IMG/VR virus record: IMGVR_UViG_3300036985_001474
Coordinates: 1-36,926 of that record
Strand: one strand, 5' to 3'
Length of the DNA stretch: 36,926 nucleotides
Source of the DNA: a virus
In this document: piece after piece, positions 16,648 to 36,926 of the stretch
Numbering within the stretch: the stretch's first letter is position 1
How the letters are laid out: each line of letters opens with the position of its first letter
The notes under the pieces: model-generated
Database searches by the model: none
What the model was told of the DNA's origin: nothing
What the model saw: only the letters and a program-made list of their open reading frames with translations
Translations under genes and position numbers: made by a program

Positions 16648-16908
16648 TTAATCAATATCTAAATCTTCATCTTCTAAAGTAAACCAATCAATTACACTAC
16701 CACTACAATCAGGTGCATAAGGACAGACAATGTATTCTATTTTTTTCTTTGCAAAAGAATTATACTCAAGATGTACTTTATAATCTCCAACTAAAAAGTT
16801 TTGACCACAATGAACACAATGCTTTATCTCAGTTAGTTTTGGCACATCATCAAATGGATAATTCTTTTTTAAGTATTTTTCTTTGTCTTTGATTTCTTTA
16901 AATTCCAT
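16648..16908 (-). CDS. Small zinc-finger protein
   Basis: This 86-aa protein has CVHCGQNF (Cys31, Cys34) and, about 30 residues on, CPYAPDC, giving four Cys in two pairs as in zinc ribbons. The C-terminus is acidic (FTLEDEDLDID). It overlaps the preceding 58-aa gene by 11 bp. The family is unknown. It lies between VRR-NUC and the SNF2 helicase and could be an accessory to either. Confidence 0.7.
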   Translation of the reverse strand: MEFKEIKDKEKYLKKNYPFDDVPKLTEIKHCVHCGQNFLVGDYKVHLEYNSFAKKKIEYIVCPYAPDCSGSVIDWFTLEDEDLDID

Positions 16909-17074
16909 AATGCTTTTCTATATAATCAAAAAGTATTCTTGCTGTATAGTTATTGTCTTTTAATACATCAAGCTCTTTTACAAGTTTTTCCCAAAGTTTA
17001 ATACTTCTTATATCTTTTTCAATAAGAGTTATTTCAACCATTATTTTGTTTTCATTTTCTTCAATTTCCATCAT
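16898..17074 (-). CDS. Small 58-aa charged protein
   Basis: The ATG at 17074 overlaps the VRR-NUC stop as ATGA, and the stop lies 11 bp inside the zinc-finger gene. The product (MMEIEENENKIMVEITLIEK, ending FDYIEKHYGI) is rich in Lys, Glu and Ile and probably helical. It fills what would otherwise be a 160-bp gap. The coupling on both sides makes it a convincing short gene. The function is unknown. Confidence 0.75.
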   Translation of the reverse strand: MMEIEENENKIMVEITLIEKDIRSIKLWEKLVKELDVLKDNNYTARILFDYIEKHYGI

Positions 17075-17454
17075 TCTTGATTTATGTATGATTCAATAAC
17101 TTTTATTGTTTCGTCTACTCCAGTAGAAAATAGTGCAGCATAACCAACTTCATTTAATGCTTTCAATACTTCTGCTTGACGTTCAGTATGCTCATTAGCT
17201 TTCAATGTACCATCCTTTTTAAATGGGTTAGCTTTCTCAGTCTTAATCTCAATGAATAGACCAGCAAAGTTACCACGTGGTAAGGCAATGAATAAGTCAG
17301 GGTAACCTTTGATTGGATTCTGTGACCTATGCTTAGTAGCCATATATGGACTAAGGTACATACCAGCAGCAAAGTCAAATCTGAATATTATTTTTGGGTG
17401 TTTGATGCTTAGATACTTTGCTATGACTTTGTAAATCTCTACTTCGTGACTCAT
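17071..17454 (-). CDS. VRR-NUC domain nuclease
   Basis: This 127-aa protein matches the stand-alone phage VRR-NUC fold: helical start (SHEVEIYKVIAKYLSI), FRFDFAAG, then GYPDLFIALP, LFIEIKTE and a later RQAEVLKAL helix. The D of PDL, the E and K of EIK and the Q of RQAE form the PD-(D/E)XK active site. Related enzymes cut branched DNA or flaps. Its 5' end overlaps the preceding gene by 80 bp in another frame. Confidence 0.9.
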   Translation of the reverse strand: MSHEVEIYKVIAKYLSIKHPKIIFRFDFAAGMYLSPYMATKHRSQNPIKGYPDLFIALPRGNFAGLFIEIKTEKANPFKKDGTLKANEHTERQAEVLKALNEVGYAALFSTGVDETIKVIESYINQE

Positions 17455-17839
17455 TTAAGAATAGTTTATAGTTGTGGATTAGTTGACTTCTTGAATTATT
17501 TGCAAGGTAAAGATAGTAGTTGAGTTCATATACTGGTAACCACTCATAACGATATGACTTAGGATAGAGCCTTTCTAATGAAGATGGTGTATACATTACC
17601 TCAACTACTGGTGCTTCATTTTTTAACTTAACACCAGTTATCTTAGACATCTGTTTCTGAATCAGTAGAGTTAACTTATTGTGGTTGATGTCAAGGTACT
17701 TAGCTATGTCAGTTGATGGTAGGTCACCACCACAAAGAAACCATCTCTTAACACCAATCACATATCTATCTTCAATCTCTTTAAACTTGATTGACTTACC
17801 AGTTAGATATTCAATGTGTTCAATTAGTTCAGACTTCAT
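17375..17839 (-). CDS. Putative DNA-binding protein with HTH-like segment
   Basis: This 154-aa basic protein contains LPSTDIAKYLDINHNKLTLL (about residues 40-59), which fits a helix-turn-helix, and is rich in Tyr, Arg and Lys further on. Its last 26 residues overlap the VRR-NUC gene, so the C-terminal tail may carry little structure. It overlaps the small preceding gene by 11 bp. It could regulate the early operon or handle recombination DNA; neither is proven. Confidence 0.6.
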   Translation of the reverse strand: MKSELIEHIEYLTGKSIKFKEIEDRYVIGVKRWFLCGGDLPSTDIAKYLDINHNKLTLLIQKQMSKITGVKLKNEAPVVEVMYTPSSLERLYPKSYRYEWLPVYELNYYLYLANNSRSQLIHNYKLFLNESRSRDLQSHSKVSKHQTPKNNIQI

Positions 17840-18068
17840 TAGTCACCTTGTATAGTTGTTCGTAGTACCCTTTACCAGTGCTATAATTCTCAAGTATAAA
17901 GCCATTTACACCTAACAAATAACCATCATTCCAAGCAGATGTAATTTGAATCTGTTCAATAGTTAAATAACTTTCAATGACTTCAAGAACTTCAGGACAT
18001 TCTTTATTCAACTTATCATGTGAACTAAGTAATCTTAGTATTATTTGAATTGCAGTTTCGTTTTTCAT
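17829..18068 (-). CDS. Small acidic helical protein
   Basis: This 79-aa protein (MKNETAIQIILRLLSSHDKL) is helical, with the ending pattern SAWNDGYLLGVNG and YYEQLY. The E...A...G...G...Y(Y/F)E pattern matches the 72-aa protein at 10046-10264, suggesting distant paralogs. It lies 2 bp after the exonuclease gene. The function is unknown. Confidence 0.6.
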   Translation of the reverse strand: MKNETAIQIILRLLSSHDKLNKECPEVLEVIESYLTIEQIQITSAWNDGYLLGVNGFILENYSTGKGYYEQLYKVTNEV

Positions 18069-18070
18069 TG

Positions 18071-18688
18071 TTATGATTTATAAGATGAATTAAAATGTGA
18101 TTTGAGTTCATTAATGTTGATGTCAAGATACCCAGTAATTAACTTGTAACCATCTGCAATCTCATTATCACTATGTCTATATACTAAGATGCTATCCGAT
18201 GTGCTATTAGTCTTTTTAGACCTTGCAGTTACACCAATGTAAAAGAAGTTCTTAGGGTCAATTCCAGCAAGTAGTGAATACCATACCGCTTGAATGTGAT
18301 TGTAGTGCTTGACCATGTCGGATGCAAACACATCTAAGGTTTTAGCTGATGTGGTTTTGATGTCTGCTATCACATTTAACTTTTCATTGTAGATGTCAAA
18401 CATACCTTTAGCTTCTATTGTATGCCTACCTATGTTCACCTCTTTGATTAGTGGGTATTCATTTATTGCACCTTCCATTATTCTCTTAGCTACTGGGTGG
18501 TTAGATATTGCCTTGTGTACGTTAAATGCTTCAAGGTTCATATCTTCAGGTCTAAGGTCTAACAACTGATGGTGTAGGCTAACACCTAATTCTAAGGCTA
18601 CCTTTGCATAACTAATGTCACCAGTATAGTGTTTCTTAATTCTTGAACAAGATAGTGCTGGGTAGTAAACGAATTGGTCACGTGTCAT
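18071..18688 (-). CDS. PD-(D/E)XK exonuclease (RecB-like/DUF3799-type)
   Basis: This 205-aa protein fits the phage PD-(D/E)XK exonuclease family: SCSRIKKHYTGD at the start, then LGVSLHHQLLD with the conserved His, KGMFDIYN, the core VIADIKTTSA (D and K of DIK) and YNHIQAVWYSLLAG (conserved Q and Y). Such enzymes resect DNA ends for strand annealing. Its start overlaps the coiled-coil gene by 4 bp; the two form a recombination pair. No obvious single-strand annealing protein is seen. Confidence 0.85.
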   Translation of the reverse strand: MTRDQFVYYPALSCSRIKKHYTGDISYAKVALELGVSLHHQLLDLRPEDMNLEAFNVHKAISNHPVAKRIMEGAINEYPLIKEVNIGRHTIEAKGMFDIYNEKLNVIADIKTTSAKTLDVFASDMVKHYNHIQAVWYSLLAGIDPKNFFYIGVTARSKKTNSTSDSILVYRHSDNEIADGYKLITGYLDININELKSHFNSSYKS

Positions 18689-19344
18689 CTTATTACTTGT
18701 GTTTTATGGTCGTAAATCTCAATACCATCAATCTTAACTACTCCGCATTTTTCCATAGCTTTAGCAAGTGGTGTGAGTAGTTCTTGATAATCTAATACCT
18801 CAGCAGCAAATAAGACATTAAGTACCATTGACCAATTCACCTCACCATTGATTCTTGCTTTCTTAGTCACCCTTATGTTCTTAGGTTGCTCAGTATTGAT
18901 GCTAACTGCTTGGTCAACAAAGTAACCAGCAAGTGTATTAAATACATCAAAGGGTGCATCTTCTAATGCTTTCTCAGATTCAATCCTTAGTTTCTCATTT
19001 GCCTCACGTTGCACTTTCTCAAGTTCTTCATTGTAGGCTAACATCTTAATCTTAGCTGATTCAATGTACTTCTTTAGTGGCTCAACTGCTTCTTTCTCAA
19101 TCTCCATTATTTGCTTTTTGTATGCATCCAATGGTGAGGTAATAGCCTTACGACTTGATTCAATCGTTTTAAGAACTTCATTTGCTAATTTGATAGTATG
19201 CTCAGTAATGTCATAAGATAGTTTGTCTTCTACCTTAGATGGTGCATCTTTGATTAGTTGTTGAGTCTTTAATGTATTTGAATGGTTGATGACTTCATAG
19301 AGTGAATCAACCTTGAGTAATATTTCTGACTTAGTATTTTTCAT
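18685..19344 (-). CDS. Coiled-coil recombination-module protein
   Basis: This 219-aa protein has a long coiled coil (about residues 45-130, with AITSPLDAYKKQIMEIEKEA and IESAKIKMLAYNEELEKVQR) and a small C-terminal domain ending DGIEIYDHKTQVIR. This layout is common in phage proteins encoded next to exonuclease and SSB genes (DUF1351-type). It likely bridges or regulates the exonuclease. It starts 48 bp after the SSB gene, with a hairpin between. Confidence 0.7.
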   Translation of the reverse strand: MKNTKSEILLKVDSLYEVINHSNTLKTQQLIKDAPSKVEDKLSYDITEHTIKLANEVLKTIESSRKAITSPLDAYKKQIMEIEKEAVEPLKKYIESAKIKMLAYNEELEKVQREANEKLRIESEKALEDAPFDVFNTLAGYFVDQAVSINTEQPKNIRVTKKARINGEVNWSMVLNVLFAAEVLDYQELLTPLAKAMEKCGVVKIDGIEIYDHKTQVIR

Positions 19345-19363
19345 TTGAGTAAAGGTTTTTAAA

Positions 19364-19383
19364 GGAGGGCTATTACACCCTCC
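19364..19383 (-). other. GC-rich hairpin between SSB and coiled-coil genes
   Basis: The minus strand reads GGAGGG, an 8-nt loop and CCCTCC, a perfect 6-bp stem, followed by TTTAAAAACC. The U-run is only three long, so it is a weak terminator at best. It sits just after the SSB stop, like the hairpin at 13060-13078. Confidence 0.6.
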
Positions 19384-19392
19384 ATTGATTAA

Positions 19393-20103
19393 TTAAAATG
19401 GTAATTTAGTAGGGTCTTCTTGTTCACCTTGCATCCAATCGAAATCACTTGGGTTAACACCTTTCTCAATTGTGAATGTAGGTAGTGGTGTTGGTGCTGG
19501 TTTATTAGCTGGGTAGTTAGCTGACATTTCAGCATTCATGTATGCTATAAATTCATCACTCAACTTAATCTTATCTTGTACGAACTCAGGTAGTGTCCTG
19601 AACACAACCATATCAGGTTGTTGAGTTGAGAATATAAGTGGTGGGTTCACAGCTGGTGGACAAACCATTCCTTTAGGTAGTGGTGTGATAGTTTGAATGT
19701 TAGCGAAGGTCTTTTCACCACTTTGTTTGTGAATGATGTTGACCATACATTCTCTACCAATTAAAGAAAACACATTGTACTTCTTAGCTTCATCCTCAGT
19801 CAATGTCTTACCCTCAATAGAGTGAACATCTTTTCTTAGAGTGCTTTTCTCGTGCATTGACAAGGTATACATATTACGTGCGTAGAATGGTTGCTCACCC
19901 TTTTCAGGGTCAAAGACCGCAGTCTCTAATGGTAGTTCAAAAAGGATTTGAACCTTTCTTTTTTTTCCACCAAATTGACCAGTTTGCTCTGTAGTTCCTA
20001 AGTCAATGATTTGATAGATTCTTGCAAGATGCATACCTACTGGTGCTATCTTGTTGCTGTAGTTTGAGTCTCCACCGATGGGAGCGTTTAGTGTTGGTAA
20101 CAT
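19393..20103 (-). CDS. Putative single-stranded DNA-binding protein
   Basis: This 236-aa protein has a beta-rich body (HLARIYQIIDLGTTEQTG, then KKRKVQILFELP) resembling DUF669-type phage ssDNA-binding proteins. A Pro-rich linker leads to an acidic C-terminal tip (QGEQEDPTKLPF). That tip matches the D/E-rich xPF tail by which SSBs recruit partners. The position ahead of the coiled-coil and exonuclease genes supports a recombination/replication role. It would coat single strands made by the exonuclease and helicase. Confidence 0.75.
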   Translation of the reverse strand: MLPTLNAPIGGDSNYSNKIAPVGMHLARIYQIIDLGTTEQTGQFGGKKRKVQILFELPLETAVFDPEKGEQPFYARNMYTLSMHEKSTLRKDVHSIEGKTLTEDEAKKYNVFSLIGRECMVNIIHKQSGEKTFANIQTITPLPKGMVCPPAVNPPLIFSTQQPDMVVFRTLPEFVQDKIKLSDEFIAYMNAEMSANYPANKPAPTPLPTFTIEKGVNPSDFDWMQGEQEDPTKLPF

Positions 20104-20130
20104 AATTGATTTGGATTTATTTAGTAAAAA

Positions 20131-20424
20131 TTAAAGTGATTTAAACATTATTGTAGCAGTCTCTTCTAATTTAGCTAATGCCTTATCATAGGCTGTTACC
20201 CATTCATCAACTGAGATAGGCTGGTAATCTCTATACTCCATAGGTACGTTGTGATGGTCTTCTTTGAAGTATTGTCTAACCATCATAGCGCAGTTAGAAT
20301 CACACCTTGTAAAGATGCCTTTGTAACAACCATCATTCACGATGGTAATCATTGACCCGTTGATATGGTCGTAATGGAAATAGGTATTATTATCTTGAAG
20401 TTTAAATAATGTTGATGCTTTCAT
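20131..20424 (-). CDS. Small early protein of unknown function
   Basis: This 97-aa protein (MKASTLFKLQDNNTYFHYDH) has strand-rich sequence with Cys (NDGCYKGIFTRCDSNCAMMV) and a C-terminal helix. No family is recognised. It lies in the early run just before the SSB gene. The Cys could bind metal, but the spacing is not a standard zinc motif. Confidence 0.6.
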   Translation of the reverse strand: MKASTLFKLQDNNTYFHYDHINGSMITIVNDGCYKGIFTRCDSNCAMMVRQYFKEDHHNVPMEYRDYQPISVDEWVTAYDKALAKLEETATIMFKSL

Positions 20425-20465
20425 ATTACACGAATTTAGGATTGATTGATTAGAAAATTAGTGGA

Positions 20466-20663
20466 TTAAAAAAAAGGAATATACTGAACCATATAGTCAC
20501 CTTCCCAAATTACGATGGATGGATTTTCTGACTCTATGTATCCTGACTTCTTGGTGGTAAGGTAGATATCTACCCACATTTTGGCATCCTTTAAAAGTTG
20601 ATGTGAAGAGATACCTTCAGATGTTGTGTTGGTCTCAATTGAGATTTGAAATTGTTTGTTCAT
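20466..20663 (-). CDS. Small early protein of unknown function
   Basis: This 65-aa protein (MNKQFQISIETNTTSEGISS) appears to alternate beta strands with one helix and ends with aromatic sequence (WEGDYMVQYIPFF). I do not recognise it. It is the second gene after the strong promoter at 20.96 kb. Confidence 0.55.
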   Translation of the reverse strand: MNKQFQISIETNTTSEGISSHQLLKDAKMWVDIYLTTKKSGYIESENPSIVIWEGDYMVQYIPFF

Positions 20664-20729
20664 TGTGATTAAATTTAGAGATTGATTAAATGAAAATATA
20701 GTGAGGTCTGAGCCTCCCTTAGTTGGTTA

Positions 20730-20882
20730 TTAATTCCAGATTTGATTTAGGATTAATTTAACTTCTTTGTCTTGCTTGTCTGTTGCTGAATACCATTCAA
20801 CAATTGATAATGCGTAGTTTAAATCTTTACCTACTGATTTAGAAAGATTCATAATGTAATTGGCAATTTGTTGGCTTTTCAT
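20730..20882 (-). CDS. First early gene, 50-aa protein
   Basis: Start set at ATG 20882 (MKSQQIANYIMNLSKSVGKD), because the in-frame sequence above it is the promoter and leader at 20883-20963. The product is a small helical protein of unknown role. Its leader recurs before the gene at 12847-13032, and its promoter recurs at 13.3 kb. Being first after a strong promoter, it may act on the host at the start of infection. A weak hairpin (GAGG/CCTC) lies after its stop. Confidence 0.65.
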   Translation of the reverse strand: MKSQQIANYIMNLSKSVGKDLNYALSIVEWYSATDKQDKEVKLILNQIWN

Positions 20883-20908
20883 AATGTTTGATTTAGTGAG
20901 TAAGTAAA
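20883..20908 (-). repeat. Repeated translation leader, copy 2
   Basis: 22 of 26 bases match 13033-13058. It lies directly before the start codon of the 50-aa gene and lacks a Shine-Dalgarno sequence. Confidence 0.75.
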
Positions 20909-20930
20909 TATTTTGTGACTTATTGATAGG

Positions 20931-20963
20931 CAAATGTAAAACTATATTTTGATTCTGCAATAC
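20931..20963 (-). promoter_or_regulatory. Main early promoter, copy A (Bacteroidota type)
   Basis: The minus strand has TTG (20960-20958), a 19-nt spacer and TACATTTG (20938-20931). The upstream GTATTGCAGAATCAAAATA and the downstream CCTATCAATAAGTCAC are nearly the same as at 13.3 kb. It faces the replication block and follows the end of the lysis/spanin gene, so it marks the early/late boundary. Confidence 0.88.
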
Positions 20964-21036
20964 CTCTATCAAAATAAACATAATTATTTTTAGTCATATT
21001 ACTTAACTGCTTGATAATGAAATAGAAAACTTTATA

Positions 21037-21720
21037 TTATTTTATTTGACTACTCAATCCGATACCCAATAATACACCTACACCAACCTTAAATGCAGTT
21101 GATTGATACCACTTAGGCTCTCTCTTAACGTAGATATTAGATAGGTTACTGATTGACATAGTAGGATTGTCAATGTGTAATCTCACTACACTATCCTTTT
21201 TTCTCAGTAAACGATTAAAAATACCATCTCTTAAAGTATCTCCTACCGAATAGGTCAAAGTACCACTTGATACGATTGAGTCGATTACAAGGCATCCTGT
21301 GGAGTCGATTTTTCCATCTATTGACCACCAATCATTATAATCTGAGAATTGAATAGGTAGCTTAATGTATTTACTTGAATCAATTGTGATAGGTTCAGCA
21401 AGTTGAATCTTAGTTTCTACCTTAGTCTTATATTGAATCTTAACAATCTCTTTAGGATTGCGAATGGCTAACAACTTAATAGCCATATCCCTTGAATCAA
21501 TTTTACTTTGATAGTTGACCGCTTGACTGATTAACTTACTTGAATCTGCCATGTGCTGCACCTTATATGATTCTACTTGTTGCTTCATATTACGATAGTC
21601 AATAGTAAGTTGACCATTTGACCCACAAGTATGAATAAAAATTAGCAGCATAACAACACCACCAACTACCATCAATACCTTATCAAGTGAGTCAAATTTA
21701 CTTTGTTGCATAACCACCAA
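21037..21720 (-). CDS. Spanin-like membrane protein
   Basis: This 227-aa protein has an N-terminal membrane segment (VLMVVGGVVMLLIFIHTCG, about residues 15-33), a coiled-coil stretch (YRNMKQQVESYKVQHMADSS onward), a beta-rich middle and a C-terminal hydrophobic segment (STAFKVGVGVLLGIGLSS). Such two-anchor proteins in Bacteroidota phage lysis regions are candidate spanins that disrupt the outer membrane. It is last in the lysis group and overlaps the 66-aa gene by 23 bp. A second ATG at 21711 is possible. Confidence 0.65.
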   Translation of the reverse strand: MVVMQQSKFDSLDKVLMVVGGVVMLLIFIHTCGSNGQLTIDYRNMKQQVESYKVQHMADSSKLISQAVNYQSKIDSRDMAIKLLAIRNPKEIVKIQYKTKVETKIQLAEPITIDSSKYIKLPIQFSDYNDWWSIDGKIDSTGCLVIDSIVSSGTLTYSVGDTLRDGIFNRLLRKKDSVVRLHIDNPTMSISNLSNIYVKREPKWYQSTAFKVGVGVLLGIGLSSQIK

Positions 21721-21898
21721 TTAACTTAATGAATTTCTCCCATTTTAATTCAAAGCATGACTTATCTCTTAGGTTACTTCTAAGTACATTTTTTGCAACA
21801 TATATTGGCATCTCTCTCTCACATACATAATGCTTTACCACAATTAAGAGTCTTTCATCTGCCTCTTCTTCATCCATTGGTAGGGTGCATTGTTTCAT
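21698..21898 (-). CDS. Small charged protein in the lysis region
   Basis: This 66-aa protein (MKQCTLPMDEEEADERLLIV) has an acidic N-terminus and a basic, hydrophobic C-terminal half. No motif is recognised. It overlaps the PAS-HisKA gene by ATGA and the spanin-like gene by 23 bp, so it is translated in step with both. It might be a partner of the PAS-HisKA protein. Confidence 0.6.
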   Translation of the reverse strand: MKQCTLPMDEEEADERLLIVVKHYVCEREMPIYVAKNVLRSNLRDKSCFELKWEKFIKLIGGYATK

Positions 21899-22464
21899 AA
21901 CTGCCGTGTTGCTTTCTTTACCAATAGGTGAATTGATTCATCAAGTCTCTTCATTGATTCATCCACCATCTTGAGTAGTTCAATCTGTTCATCCTCACCT
22001 ACATTATTACCCTTATCAAGTAACAACTTAACCACACCAGCAACTGATGTCAATGGTTGCCTAAGTTCGTGAGATAACATAAACCTGAACTCTTCAAGTA
22101 ACACCTTTTGTTTTTCGTGTTCGTGACTGGTAATAGATGTCACATCAGTAATTTGGAATCCAACAAAATGAAGTGACCCAAGTATAGCGTAGCAGTTCCA
22201 CAAGTTCCACCTTAACCCACTATTTTTCTGCTTTGTTCTTGCATAGATACGAACTGGGTTAGGACTTAACTCAATTGCTTTCTTTACCGAAATAACATAA
22301 TCGTCAAGTTCAGTATCGTCTGAAATTATATCACTAACCTTCTTAGGTTTGATGTGAGATGAATACTCTTTGAATAAATCATTTGACCTTACTATGTTAC
22401 CTTCATAGTCAGCAACTACATACAACAAGTCAATCGAATTAGCTAAGATGTATTGAGTAGACAT
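21895..22464 (-). CDS. PAS + histidine kinase dimerisation (HisKA) protein lacking the ATPase domain
   Basis: This 189-aa cytosolic-looking protein begins with a PAS-like sensor domain (about residues 8-108; SIDLLYVVADYEGNIVRSND, ending FVGFQITDVTS). A HisKA dimerisation and phosphotransfer domain follows, with a clear H-box FMLSHELRQPLTSVAG and the phosphoacceptor His at 132. The second helix ends LDESIHLLVKKATRQL, exactly where a histidine kinase would pass into its HATPase_c domain. The N, G1 and G2 boxes are absent. It cannot make phosphate itself but could dimerise with, be phosphorylated by, or block a host kinase. It lies between a tail-anchored membrane protein and a 66-aa gene. Confidence 0.85.
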   Translation of the reverse strand: MSTQYILANSIDLLYVVADYEGNIVRSNDLFKEYSSHIKPKKVSDIISDDTELDDYVISVKKAIELSPNPVRIYARTKQKNSGLRWNLWNCYAILGSLHFVGFQITDVTSITSHEHEKQKVLLEEFRFMLSHELRQPLTSVAGVVKLLLDKGNNVGEDEQIELLKMVDESMKRLDESIHLLVKKATRQL

Positions 22465-22466
22465 AT

Positions 22467-22976
22467 CTAACTCTTAACTATCTTGTTAATTTTACGAATC
22501 ATATCTAACCAATAAAATGTAGACCGATATAGCCATATAGAAGTAGCTAACAACATCAACATCATTACAATTGAGTTAGACAAATCACTATATAAGTAGT
22601 TTTGAACCATCTTATTATTACATTTTTGTATAGAATAAGGTTTTAATTCAAACTTATTACCCTTAATTAACCACTTTGCATCACATGGCTGTATAGTATC
22701 CGATGCTCTAAATGGTTGTATGGCTATTGTTTCAACTTCTACCTTTTCATTTGGCTCAAATTTAGTCAATATTTCATCAACATATAGAGTCTCACCCCAC
22801 TGATTTTTATAAATGAACATTGATGTATCACCCATGTAGTGATTTACAAACGTAAAAGGCTCAGGTGTAAGTACCACTTCTTTTAAAATGTGGTTATGAA
22901 CCTTACAAGATGCACCAATCACACAAACATTATCAAATGTGTGAGTATAAATAGTGTCTTTTACCATCTTATACAT
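22467..22976 (-). CDS. Tail-anchored membrane protein in the lysis region
   Basis: This 169-aa protein has a soluble first 130 residues with four Cys, then a membrane segment (SIVMMLMLLATSIWLY, about 135-150) and a basic tail (DMIRKINKIVKS). ATGs at 22976 and 22967 are both possible; the latter is 1 nt after the holin-like stop. No family is recognised. It lies 2 bp before the PAS-HisKA gene and might anchor or signal to that protein, or be part of the lysis machinery. Confidence 0.6.
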   Translation of the reverse strand: MYKMVKDTIYTHTFDNVCVIGASCKVHNHILKEVVLTPEPFTFVNHYMGDTSMFIYKNQWGETLYVDEILTKFEPNEKVEVETIAIQPFRASDTIQPCDAKWLIKGNKFELKPYSIQKCNNKMVQNYLYSDLSNSIVMMLMLLATSIWLYRSTFYWLDMIRKINKIVKS

Positions 22977-23184: not shown

Positions 23185-23643
23185 CTATACGACCACCTTA
23201 AAATATAGTTCTGCTTCTTTTTGCCTTCTATTGACCAAACCTTTCAACACCTTACCACCGCCTCTATTCCATTTAGCGAACTCTAAGGCAATATCTTTAT
23301 CATTAGGGTTAATAAGTACCTTTTTGAGCAGTGTAGACTTGGATAAGTTACCTAATCCACAATTAAAGGCAAATGATACCAATGCATCAAACTGGTATTG
23401 AGTCAAATTGACCGACCTTGTGTACTTACTTACGTAAATATCAAAGTCAACTAAGGTATTAATCAATAATACCTCTGCTTCATCCTTATCACGTAGCACA
23501 TCACCCATCTTGACATTGGATTTGTCAGGGTAGAACGTAGAACCATAACCAATAGTAGGTACACCAGCCGAACACTTATAGGCATTGAGTCTAAGACCTT
23601 CAAAGTCCTTGACTAATTGAATACCAGTCTTACTTATATTCAT
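23185..23643 (-). CDS. Endolysin, GH24 lysozyme (muramidase)
   Basis: The 152-aa enzyme cleaves peptidoglycan between MurNAc and GlcNAc. It shows the GH24 signature: E15 in KDFEGLRLNAYKC, then SAGVPTIGYGST with T30. The usual catalytic Asp is Cys24 here, a variant seen in other phage GH24 enzymes. FDALVSFAFNCGLGNL and KWNRGGGKVLKGLVNRRQKE are the other family blocks. No signal peptide is seen, so release depends on the holin. The start shares a base with the upstream stop (TAATG). Confidence 0.92.
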   Translation of the reverse strand: MNISKTGIQLVKDFEGLRLNAYKCSAGVPTIGYGSTFYPDKSNVKMGDVLRDKDEAEVLLINTLVDFDIYVSKYTRSVNLTQYQFDALVSFAFNCGLGNLSKSTLLKKVLINPNDKDIALEFAKWNRGGGKVLKGLVNRRQKEAELYFKVVV

Positions 23644-33890: not shown

Positions 33891-34490
33891 TTAGTATTTA
33901 GATATTAAAGATATACCACGACCTTCAGGTGTATTCAATGTTGTTGTGTTGTAGTTGTAATTTGCTGCATACTCAACAAGTCTTTTAGGGTCTTGAAGGT
34001 GGATGGTATCATGGTATACAATTACACCACCTCGACTAACCAACTTTTCAACCAACTTAAACTCAGGTAGGATTGATGCCCAAGAATGGTCACCATCCAC
34101 AAAGATTAAGTCAAAGTGATTAGCTGGTAGTTTACTTAATTCATTGTGAGAATTACCTAAGATAAAGTCAATTGACTTACCACCCTCTGACATATACAAC
34201 TTAGTTGCTGCTGTACGATAGTCGTTAATATCAATGCCTACGTATTGACCGCCTTTAGGTAGTGACTTAATAAGGTGTTGTGTTGTTTCACCTTCAAATA
34301 CACCAATCTCAAGAATGGTCTTATACTTTGACATTCTAACTAATGAACCTAAGAATTGACCAACTTCATCTTCAGAGTTCCAGTCATGCCTTGCAACCTC
34401 TGTAAATGTCTCAGTAGTTACAATTTCTGTAGATATTGTTTCGACCTTCTTAGGTCTCCCTTTCGGTTTTTTGGTAGATATGTCTTTCAT
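33891..34490 (-). CDS. Class I SAM-dependent methyltransferase
   Basis: This 199-aa protein has an AT-hook-like start (KKPKGRPKK), then a Rossmann methyltransferase: motif I LEIGVFEGETT (60-70), VGIDI (84-88), FDLIFVDGDHSW (126-137) and GGVIVYHDT (154-162), the Methyltransf_24 pattern. Such enzymes often methylate sugars or small molecules. It overlaps the glycosyltransferase by 4 bp, so the two may modify the same glycan or virion protein. It is not a DNA methylase by motif. Confidence 0.85.
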   Translation of the reverse strand: MKDISTKKPKGRPKKVETISTEIVTTETFTEVARHDWNSEDEVGQFLGSLVRMSKYKTILEIGVFEGETTQHLIKSLPKGGQYVGIDINDYRTAATKLYMSEGGKSIDFILGNSHNELSKLPANHFDLIFVDGDHSWASILPEFKLVEKLVSRGGVIVYHDTIHLQDPKRLVEYAANYNYNTTTLNTPEGRGISLISKY

Positions 34491-35440
34491 TTGTTTACGT
34501 ATTTTTGACCTATGATTCTATCAATATGAAATTGATGTATTTTGTTTTGAGTTCGCATCATTACCTTCATTAACCTATCTAACCACTCAGTATAGAATCT
34601 TGATGTAAAATTCCTACCACCATAGTAAGATTGAAAATAATAGTTTTCTGTTACTTCTTGGAATGACAAACCACGAACATTAGCAAAGTGAATAAACCCA
34701 GTTTCAGATTTGCCACCACCTACTATACCATCATTCTTATATGATGGGTCGTATGATGTCATAGCTAATGCAACATTCATATAGAGTTCATCAGGTTGAC
34801 CATTACCCCACTTCATTCTAAGTCTATTTGTTGGTAGTTGGTTAGTCGTATAAAGGTTTCTAAGAACCTCAAATAACATTTTCGACTCTTTGCCTATCTT
34901 AATGAATTGAAGGCTGCTATTGATAGCTGGTAGGATTGAATCGTATTCTAAGTTAAAGTGACTCCAAATATCATCTGCCCATGCCCATTGCATTGAGGGG
35001 ATATCACGTCCTAAATCAATAGTATGATACCCCACACAATGACTGATGTAATGCCTCTTTGTACTTACTAAATCGTCTATTAATGGCTGAATGTCTTTTA
35101 AACATATAGCATCAACATCAAGATATAGATTGTTTTTAAAAGGCAAATACTTGTATAGAGACACCTTCAACATAGCTGGGTCAAATTTACCATCTACGTA
35201 TAGGTCGGAATGTTCGATTTGATTTAATGAATCAACGTACTTCTTGATGTCACCCGTTGCATTTTCACACTTCTTAATATCGTCTACAAAGAGTGCAATC
35301 TTTACATTAGGTGAATGATACTTTATTGAATAGGCTAAGTTGTATGCTGCTTGATAGTAGCCTTGTTTGCCGAAAGCAAATAGTACCACACCTTCATTAG
35401 AAGATGTGGCAATATCGTTAGTGTTTAACTCTTCAGTCAT
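34487..35440 (-). CDS. Glycosyltransferase (GT-A fold)
   Basis: This 317-aa protein starts a GT-A fold (GVVLFAFGKQGYYQAAYNLA, then PNVKIALFVDD) and has the metal-binding DVD of LYLDVDAICL (D108-D110). The fold resembles GT8-like sugar transferases. It would move a nucleotide-sugar to a protein or glycan acceptor. It lies between the tail-tube candidate and the methyltransferase, within virion genes, so virion glycosylation is a reasonable hypothesis. It shares one base with the upstream gene. Confidence 0.85.
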   Translation of the reverse strand: MTEELNTNDIATSSNEGVVLFAFGKQGYYQAAYNLAYSIKYHSPNVKIALFVDDIKKCENATGDIKKYVDSLNQIEHSDLYVDGKFDPAMLKVSLYKYLPFKNNLYLDVDAICLKDIQPLIDDLVSTKRHYISHCVGYHTIDLGRDIPSMQWAWADDIWSHFNLEYDSILPAINSSLQFIKIGKESKMLFEVLRNLYTTNQLPTNRLRMKWGNGQPDELYMNVALAMTSYDPSYKNDGIVGGGKSETGFIHFANVRGLSFQEVTENYYFQSYYGGRNFTSRFYTEWLDRLMKVMMRTQNKIHQFHIDRIIGQKYVNK

Positions 35441-36060: not shown

Positions 36061-36926
36061 CTACAAATTATTTTCGTAATACAAATTAACTGAATCTTGT
36101 GTAGTTATTCTATTTAGGTCTTCAGTCAATAAGAAAGGTTCATCTGAGTTATCTAAGATTGATGGTAAGCAGTCAGCATCTGAGTCACCACATTGTACCT
36201 TAACAACCTTATTGTCTTTCTCAACTAAGTCAATAGCAAAAGAACCTAAGTAGGTGTCAGCATCAGACCAGTCAATAGAAGGGAATGCATTATCTTGTGG
36301 AAACATTAACACACCATTGACATAACAATTGTCATAGTAGAAGATGGTAGATAAAAAGTCTAATACATATTCAGGTAATCTCCCAAAATGATATGTCCAT
36401 TGTTTTAATCGGTTGACATAGTTAGCAGACCACTTACCTGATGCATATCTAAAGGTGTTAGCATTGGTCACGTATTGAGCCTTAGACCTTCTACCCTCTA
36501 ACCTTATCATTGGTAAGAATGATGAACCGCCAAAGGCAAAGTTAAACTGGTCTTGAGCATTACAACCTTCAATCTTAAAGTATTTACAACTATCGTTATA
36601 GTCACCTAAGTCAAAGATGTCAGAGTATTGAACGAATGTAGAAGATTGAGCAGTAAGACTAACAACACAACTATCAATGTACACAAATGCACCATCTGCC
36701 ATTGCTTGACCTCTTATAGTTAGTTGTTCAGCAAATGCACCAGTAGTAACTTGAAACGTAAATGTACCTACACCAGCAACATAGTTAGGTGTGACTGAAC
36801 CACCTGATGGTGCTAATACAAATACCCTTACATCTTGATGTTGAGTGATAGTAATGGTAACATCATAGACTGAATCTTCAGCAGCACATAAGAAAGAATC
36901 ACTTACCATTACTGCATTATCTCCAG
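36061..36926 (-). CDS. Large tail/virion protein, C-terminal part (continues from base 1)
   Basis: This is the C-terminal 251 residues plus the repeat-overlap copy of the 555-aa protein that starts at 913. An internal Met lies at 36909, but the frame continues across the joined ends. It includes an Ig-like beta region (YDVTITITQHQDVRVFVLAP) and a C-terminal domain with many aromatic residues (KWSANYVNRLKQWTYHFGRL) and a Cys-bearing end (KVQCGDSDADCLPSIL). No enzyme motif is seen. Confidence 0.8.
   Translation of the reverse strand, partial: GDNAVMVSDSFLCAAEDSVYDVTITITQHQDVRVFVLAPSGGSVTPNYVAGVGTFTFQVTTGAFAEQLTIRGQAMADGAFVYIDSCVVSLTAQSSTFVQYSDIFDLGDYNDSCKYFKIEGCNAQDQFNFAFGGSSFLPMIRLEGRRSKAQYVTNANTFRYASGKWSANYVNRLKQWTYHFGRLPEYVLDFLSTIFYYDNCYVNGVLMFPQDNAFPSIDWSDADTYLGSFAIDLVEKDNKVVKVQCGDSDADCLPSILDNSDEPFLLTEDLNRITTQDSVNLYYENNL
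36816..36926. repeat. Direct terminal repeat, right copy
   Basis: Identical to 1-111. See the left copy for the circularity argument. Confidence 0.95.

Follow-up and report, generated by a model that had tools for sequence, protein, structure and literature searches.

The window analysed here, one strand of 36,926 nucleotides that spans IMG/VR virus record IMGVR_UViG_3300036985_001474 from position 1 to position 36,926, has a 111-bp terminal direct repeat, a GC content of 35%, and Shine-Dalgarno-like motifs before just 5 of its 32 genes, a combination that fits a complete phage genome from a Bacteroidota host. We infer this host rather than identify it because the capsid protein has no match among cultured phages; the terminase matches Bacteroidota phages weakly, alongside many others. 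Phages of this group probably infect Bacteroidota. In the structural region (33891-35440), two adjacent genes resemble, by eye, a SAM-dependent methyltransferase and a glycosyltransferase, a pair possibly involved in virion modification. The gene considered below encodes a 189-aa protein, denoted PAS-HisKA, and lies on the minus strand among the genes listed in Table 1.

Table 1. Genes and protein features around PAS-HisKA, by position in the window
Feature	Position	Strand	Basis
Spanin-like protein p227: hydrophobic N-terminus ending in Cys (lipobox-like)	21037..21720	-	
p66, 66-aa helical protein, with a 4-nt overlap (ATGA) at the PAS-HisKA stop	21698..21898	-	
PAS-HisKA protein, 189 aa, without ATPase domain	21895..22464	-	Pfam, AlphaFold, Foldseek; at least 144 distinct family members
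Coiled-coil linker and HisKA/DHp helices, residues 113-189	21898..22128	-	Pfam HisKA E=5.6e-9; AlphaFold
H-box LLEEFRFMLSHELRQPLTS, residues 122-140	22045..22101	-	highest conservation within the family
Predicted PAS domain, about residues 1-107, DVT motif at its end	22144..22464	-	AlphaFold and Foldseek
Membrane protein, single C-terminal TM helix, poorly conserved	22467..22976	-	
Holin-like small membrane protein, 69 aa	22969..23178	-	one predicted TM helix and endolysin neighbour
Endolysin (Phage_lysozyme)	23185..23643	-	PF00959 E=1.6e-39; PHROG endolysin E=5.5e-52

The initial annotation placed the gene in a lysis region, and the neighbours bear this out: an endolysin, a holin-like protein with one helix and a spanin-like protein surround it, and the loci listed share one gene order: endolysin, holin-like protein, membrane protein, PAS-HisKA, p66, spanin-like protein. 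The holin-like protein has no family match in Pfam or PHROG. The spanin-like p227, likewise, has no PHROG match; the Cys is present in 86 of 87 homologues, a C-terminal hydrophobic stretch is seen in many members, and both N- and C-terminal helices are called in 36 of the 87. This layout is, presumably, akin to that of unimolecular spanins, and p227, judging from its sequence, may be a unimolecular spanin of Bacteroidota phages. When the two main clades are compared, PAS-HisKA is the best conserved gene of the cassette (59% identity), followed by the endolysin (53%), p66 (39%), p227 (38%), the holin-like protein (30%) and the membrane protein (24%). Between the window and the related record IMGVR_UViG_3300037493_001386, the genes past the cassette (16648-20981 of the window) are 100% identical, whereas PAS-HisKA, p227 and the membrane protein share 93%, 73% and 62% identity, respectively; this disparity between the flank and the diverged cassette genes points to a recent recombination that exchanged the lysis cassette.

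The PAS-HisKA protein was originally described from the sequence as a PAS domain joined to a HisKA domain, and both assignments hold, the second by profile and the first by predicted fold. The Pfam HisKA model (PF00512) scores 36.4 bits over residues 129-178 (cutoff 26.9, E=5.6e-9), and it also matches all 25 family representatives examined (25/25); the phosphoacceptor is His132, within the H-box SHELRQPL, with its codon at 22069-22071. NCBIfam yields only matches to sensor kinase fragments, below their cutoffs, and none of the Pfam PAS models matches the 189-aa protein. The PAS assignment derives, instead, from structure prediction and from the PAS-type DVT motif at residues 107-109, before the coiled coil. 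The AlphaFold model, built with 25 members of the family (mean pLDDT 80, pTM 0.77), comprises a PAS-like domain at about residues 1-107 that is followed by a linker helix and a pair of long helices, with helices called at 113-127, 135-151 and 157-188. Foldseek against the PDB places LOV/PAS histidine kinases on top (8a6x_B, E=8e-7) and free PAS domains next, and the family profile matches the PAS sensor kinase 3a0r over the DVT motif, linker and DHp helices (E=4.4e-5). The predicted fold is, accordingly, that of a PAS-DHp protein and not an unrelated one.

What the protein does not contain is a kinase catalytic domain. HATPase_c (PF02518) was found neither in the protein nor anywhere in this genome and 26 relatives (27 phage records altogether), no HATPase_c_2 was found in the 16 of these records that were searched for it, and no Response_reg (receiver) domain, the mark of a cognate regulator, was detected in the 27. 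Since the catalytic domain was searched for and is absent, PAS-HisKA falls, functionally, outside the histidine kinase family, and, in the absence of both HATPase_c and receiver domains from the 27 records, any donor of phosphate must be the host's. A separate HATPase or receiver gene within the phage, adjacent or distant, is ruled out on the same grounds. The stop right after the dimerisation domain, which the initial annotation had pointed out, recurs throughout the family and appears deliberate: at least 238 closed motif-bearing reading frames all end 57-58 residues from the histidine (counted inclusively), and across at least 144 distinct homologues in IMG/VR the end falls 54-58 residues from it; no HATPase_c lies downstream, where the next gene begins inside the PAS-HisKA stop codon (ATGA). 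The most divergent member (L250, down to 45% identity) ends about three residues earlier, with its architecture unchanged.

The truncation could, in principle, be the remnant of a host histidine kinase acquired by chance and now decaying, or the product of a frameshift or sequencing error that conceals the ATPase domain, and one copy in the family, L146, is indeed frameshifted. It is the only such copy, and at least 144 distinct intact proteins share the same end, at a dN/dS of 0.08, with no HATPase in the 27 records and with the gene present at every cassette locus that covers its place. A concealing error is thereby ruled out, decay is refuted by the conservation itself, and an origin of either kind is hardly credible. 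The missing ATPase domain is a real, conserved trait of the family.

The extent of this family was gauged in IMG/VR, where tblastn confirmed relatives in at least 291 to 361 stretches; these collection counts are lower bounds, and distinct proteins are quoted here since several loci share contigs. The at least 144 distinct homologous proteins fall into eight clusters at 70% identity, with 45% identity in the lowest pair, and in all of them S131, H132, E133, R135, Q136, P137, L138 and T139 are invariant, in keeping with the original observation of an intact H-box with His132. Strong purifying selection acts on the gene, with a dN/dS of about 0.08 (0.075) overall and of 0.030 in the H-box, where pS is about 0.6 per site. 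Because the earlier searches could have favoured the H-box, searches free of it were run with either the PAS residues alone or the downstream spanin-like gene p227 alone. In the first, every closed member except the frameshifted L146 has H-E-[LI]-R-Q-P-L-T-[SN]. The second yielded at least 39 new p227 loci, 33 of which carry PAS-HisKA while the remaining six are truncated by the end of their contig; all 33 proteins, which are counted among the 144, carry H-E-[LI]-R-Q-P and stop at the same point. Every full-length member found by these searches has S-H-E-x-R-Q-P-L-T, so that an artefact of H-box searching is ruled out as the source of the invariant histidine. Among the matches listed, PAS-HisKA is present at each cassette locus that covers its place, including 33 of 33 new p227 loci.

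Outside these uncultivated phages, the family was not encountered: at the sensitivity used, neither the GTDB species genomes (bacterial or prophage relatives) nor the cultured phage collection yielded a member. Candidate cultured relatives came down to weak HisKA matches in unannotated 'Listeria phage LM' records (OR848128, OR846731 and others), which are possibly contigs of bacterial origin submitted under a phage name. No PHROG matches the 189-aa family, apart from weak matches to phrog_10912 and phrog_857 over the HisKA region.

Which residues are conserved is informative when set against kinases of known chemistry. In HisKA kinases, the Glu or Asp at position +1 from the histidine is needed for the kinase reaction only, and the Thr or Asn at +4 for the phosphatase reaction only, as illustrated by CrdS N375Q, which keeps about 60% of the kinase activity with the phosphatase abolished (PMC3510030). 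Alanine scanning of EnvZ showed that H243, D244, R246, P248 and L249 are required for phosphorylation (PMC2991266). The equivalents of all five, His132, Glu133, Arg135, Pro137 and Leu138, are invariant in the phage family. Of the H-E/D-x-x-T/N motif, the H-E part is present, and position +4 is always Gln (Gln136), never Thr or Asn. The invariant Gln at the phosphatase position was missed by the initial annotation, as was the obligate p66 partner; the architecture it described stands. The retained residues together with Gln at +4 fit selection for receiving phosphate and, perhaps, not for stripping it from regulators. Gln at this position occurs in natural kinases too, for instance those of the FixL type, so that the loss of phosphatase activity is uncertain; and conservation of the motif could also reflect the keeping of DHp packing.

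These residues bear directly on two other possible roles. A pure decoy would form a heterodimer with a host histidine kinase by way of PAS and DHp and block the autophosphorylation of that kinase, the decoy's own histidine being dispensable. There are precedents, as RetS heterodimerises with GacS, inhibits it and siphons phosphate, and Sda and KipI block kinases through protein binding (PMC12189002), and an ATPase-less PAS-DHp protein might conceivably pair with a subunit of a host kinase. Steric blocking, however, needs neither an invariant histidine nor the kinase-specific Glu, and the GTDB genomes yielded no host kinase that shares the extended motif, which makes this role unlikely. For the former reason, the conserved residues favour genuine phosphoacceptance over a blocking decoy. 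A histidine phosphotransferase in the manner of Spo0B, ChpT or CheA3, exchanging phosphate with host response regulators without being fed by a kinase, would agree with the invariance of H132, and DHp-type phosphotransferases and split kinases are known (CheA3/CheA4, PMC3591291). Yet the +1 Glu, a residue that only the kinase reaction requires, never varies either, and the parts of the DHp domain that face response regulators vary, so that such a role appears quite improbable. Conservation within PAS-HisKA is lowest, in fact, in helix 2 and in the regulator-facing second half of helix 1, and, for this reason, no single regulator partner is indicated.

The gene that follows, p66, belongs to no known family, and its predicted structure of three helices has no fold match in the PDB; its homologues share an invariant D-x-R-L...Y..E..M-P pattern. 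The 4-nt ATGA overlap with PAS-HisKA occurs in 216 of the 238 loci listed (of which there are at least that many), and in a scan with the p66 motif all listed loci carried PAS-HisKA as well, bar one chance match and contig ends. By these sequence features, p66 appears to be an obligate partner gene, translationally coupled to PAS-HisKA. This coupling and the position in the lysis cassette would also suit a PAS dimer that acts independently of phosphorylation, as a sensor or scaffold that gates lysis jointly with, for instance, the membrane protein or p66, the DHp helices being a mere coiled-coil dimeriser. PAS domains are able to sense without kinase activity, and a protein with a transmembrane segment, a coiled coil and a PAS-like fold match is found near the lysozyme of Cellulophaga phage phi19:1; the conservation of S-H-E-x-R-Q-P-L-T above the rest of the helices, which a mere dimeriser has no need of, nevertheless renders this proposal decidedly improbable. 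The phi19:1 protein, gp108 (L283:6203-6925), is annotated as hypothetical; it is a membrane-anchored coiled coil encoded about 1.5 kb before the lysozyme, with a C-terminus that is PAS-like by fold match only (E=3e-3), and proteins of this type occur, besides this cultured Bacteroidota phage, in the phi10:1 and Nekkels phages.

Taken together, these data lead us to favour, with somewhat better than even confidence, a scenario in which PAS-HisKA is a phage-encoded half-kinase, a phosphoacceptor powered in trans by host kinases, that serves as a sink or a switch. A cytoplasmic PAS domain would sit on the two-helix DHp domain, with His132 as the acceptor and no ATP-binding domain; dimerisation, most likely, would proceed via the DHp helices, giving either a homodimer or a pair with a host histidine kinase of the PAS type, and His132 would, most likely, be phosphorylated in trans by the catalytic domain of the host enzyme. 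Given that Gln replaces the phosphatase Thr or Asn, the phosphate would tend to stay on the protein or to be transferred further, instead of being stripped off host regulators, and PAS-HisKA would operate as a phosphate sink or a switch run by host kinases. The likeliest direct partner or reader would be the coupled p66, and the likeliest output, control over the lysis gene products. Phosphorylation, its donor, the contact with p66 and the role in lysis are what we infer here. Between a sink that damps host signalling and a lysis switch read by p66, the latter gains appeal from the gene order and from the obligate pairing. Control of lysis timing, one of the roles initially envisaged, is suggested by gene position only, and no support was found for the other, the envelope-stress response. 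The remaining ideas first put forward, phosphorylation by or heterodimerisation with a host kinase and a part as decoy or phosphate sink, would be compatible with these results. That PAS-HisKA and p66 read host kinase activity via phospho-His132, and so time lysis to host physiology, is a tentative and rather doubtful extension.

Were His132 phosphorylated by host kinases, phages would directly tap or drain the two-component signalling of the host, and lysis timing could be tied to it. With its invariant motif, its fixed point of truncation and its obligate partner p66, PAS-HisKA lends itself to tests of this hypothesis with a few purified proteins. A search of the open-access literature brought up nothing relevant on phage PAS, HisKA or lysis, and no published phage in which a conserved core gene encodes the phosphoacceptor part of a histidine kinase.

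Among known systems, the PAS HisKA kinases (PDB 3a0r; the LOV-HK chimera 4gcz/8a6x) have the PAS domain, DVT motif, coiled linker, H-box and two DHp helices in common with PAS-HisKA, which differs in being phage-encoded, in lacking the catalytic ATP-binding domain and a cognate regulator, and in having Gln at His+4. Full-length histidine kinases of phages (phrog_10912, phrog_857) match weakly, over the HisKA region, with profiles of 468-970 positions as against the 189 residues of this family. Spo0B and ChpT are similar to PAS-HisKA in that a four-helix DHp dimer carries phosphate without kinase activity, but they retain a CA-like domain in degenerate form and are not known to contain a PAS domain; Sda and KipI are not known to carry a phosphoacceptor histidine. 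RetS, Sda and KipI act on another kinase of the cell in trans, as the phage protein would, and RetS does so through a DHp heterodimer and the siphoning of phosphate from GacS (PMC12189002); unlike PAS-HisKA, none of the three is phage-encoded, and RetS is a full bacterial hybrid kinase. CheA3 of Rhodobacter sphaeroides, with its partner CheA4, is likewise a phosphoacceptor without a catalytic domain that relies on the kinase domain of another protein (PMC3591291), although its P1 domain is of the Hpt type and its partner bacterial, where the phage protein is of the HisKA type and has a host kinase as the proposed donor. By analogy, then, PAS-HisKA would work most like the phosphoacceptor of a split kinase, such as CheA3, or like RetS.
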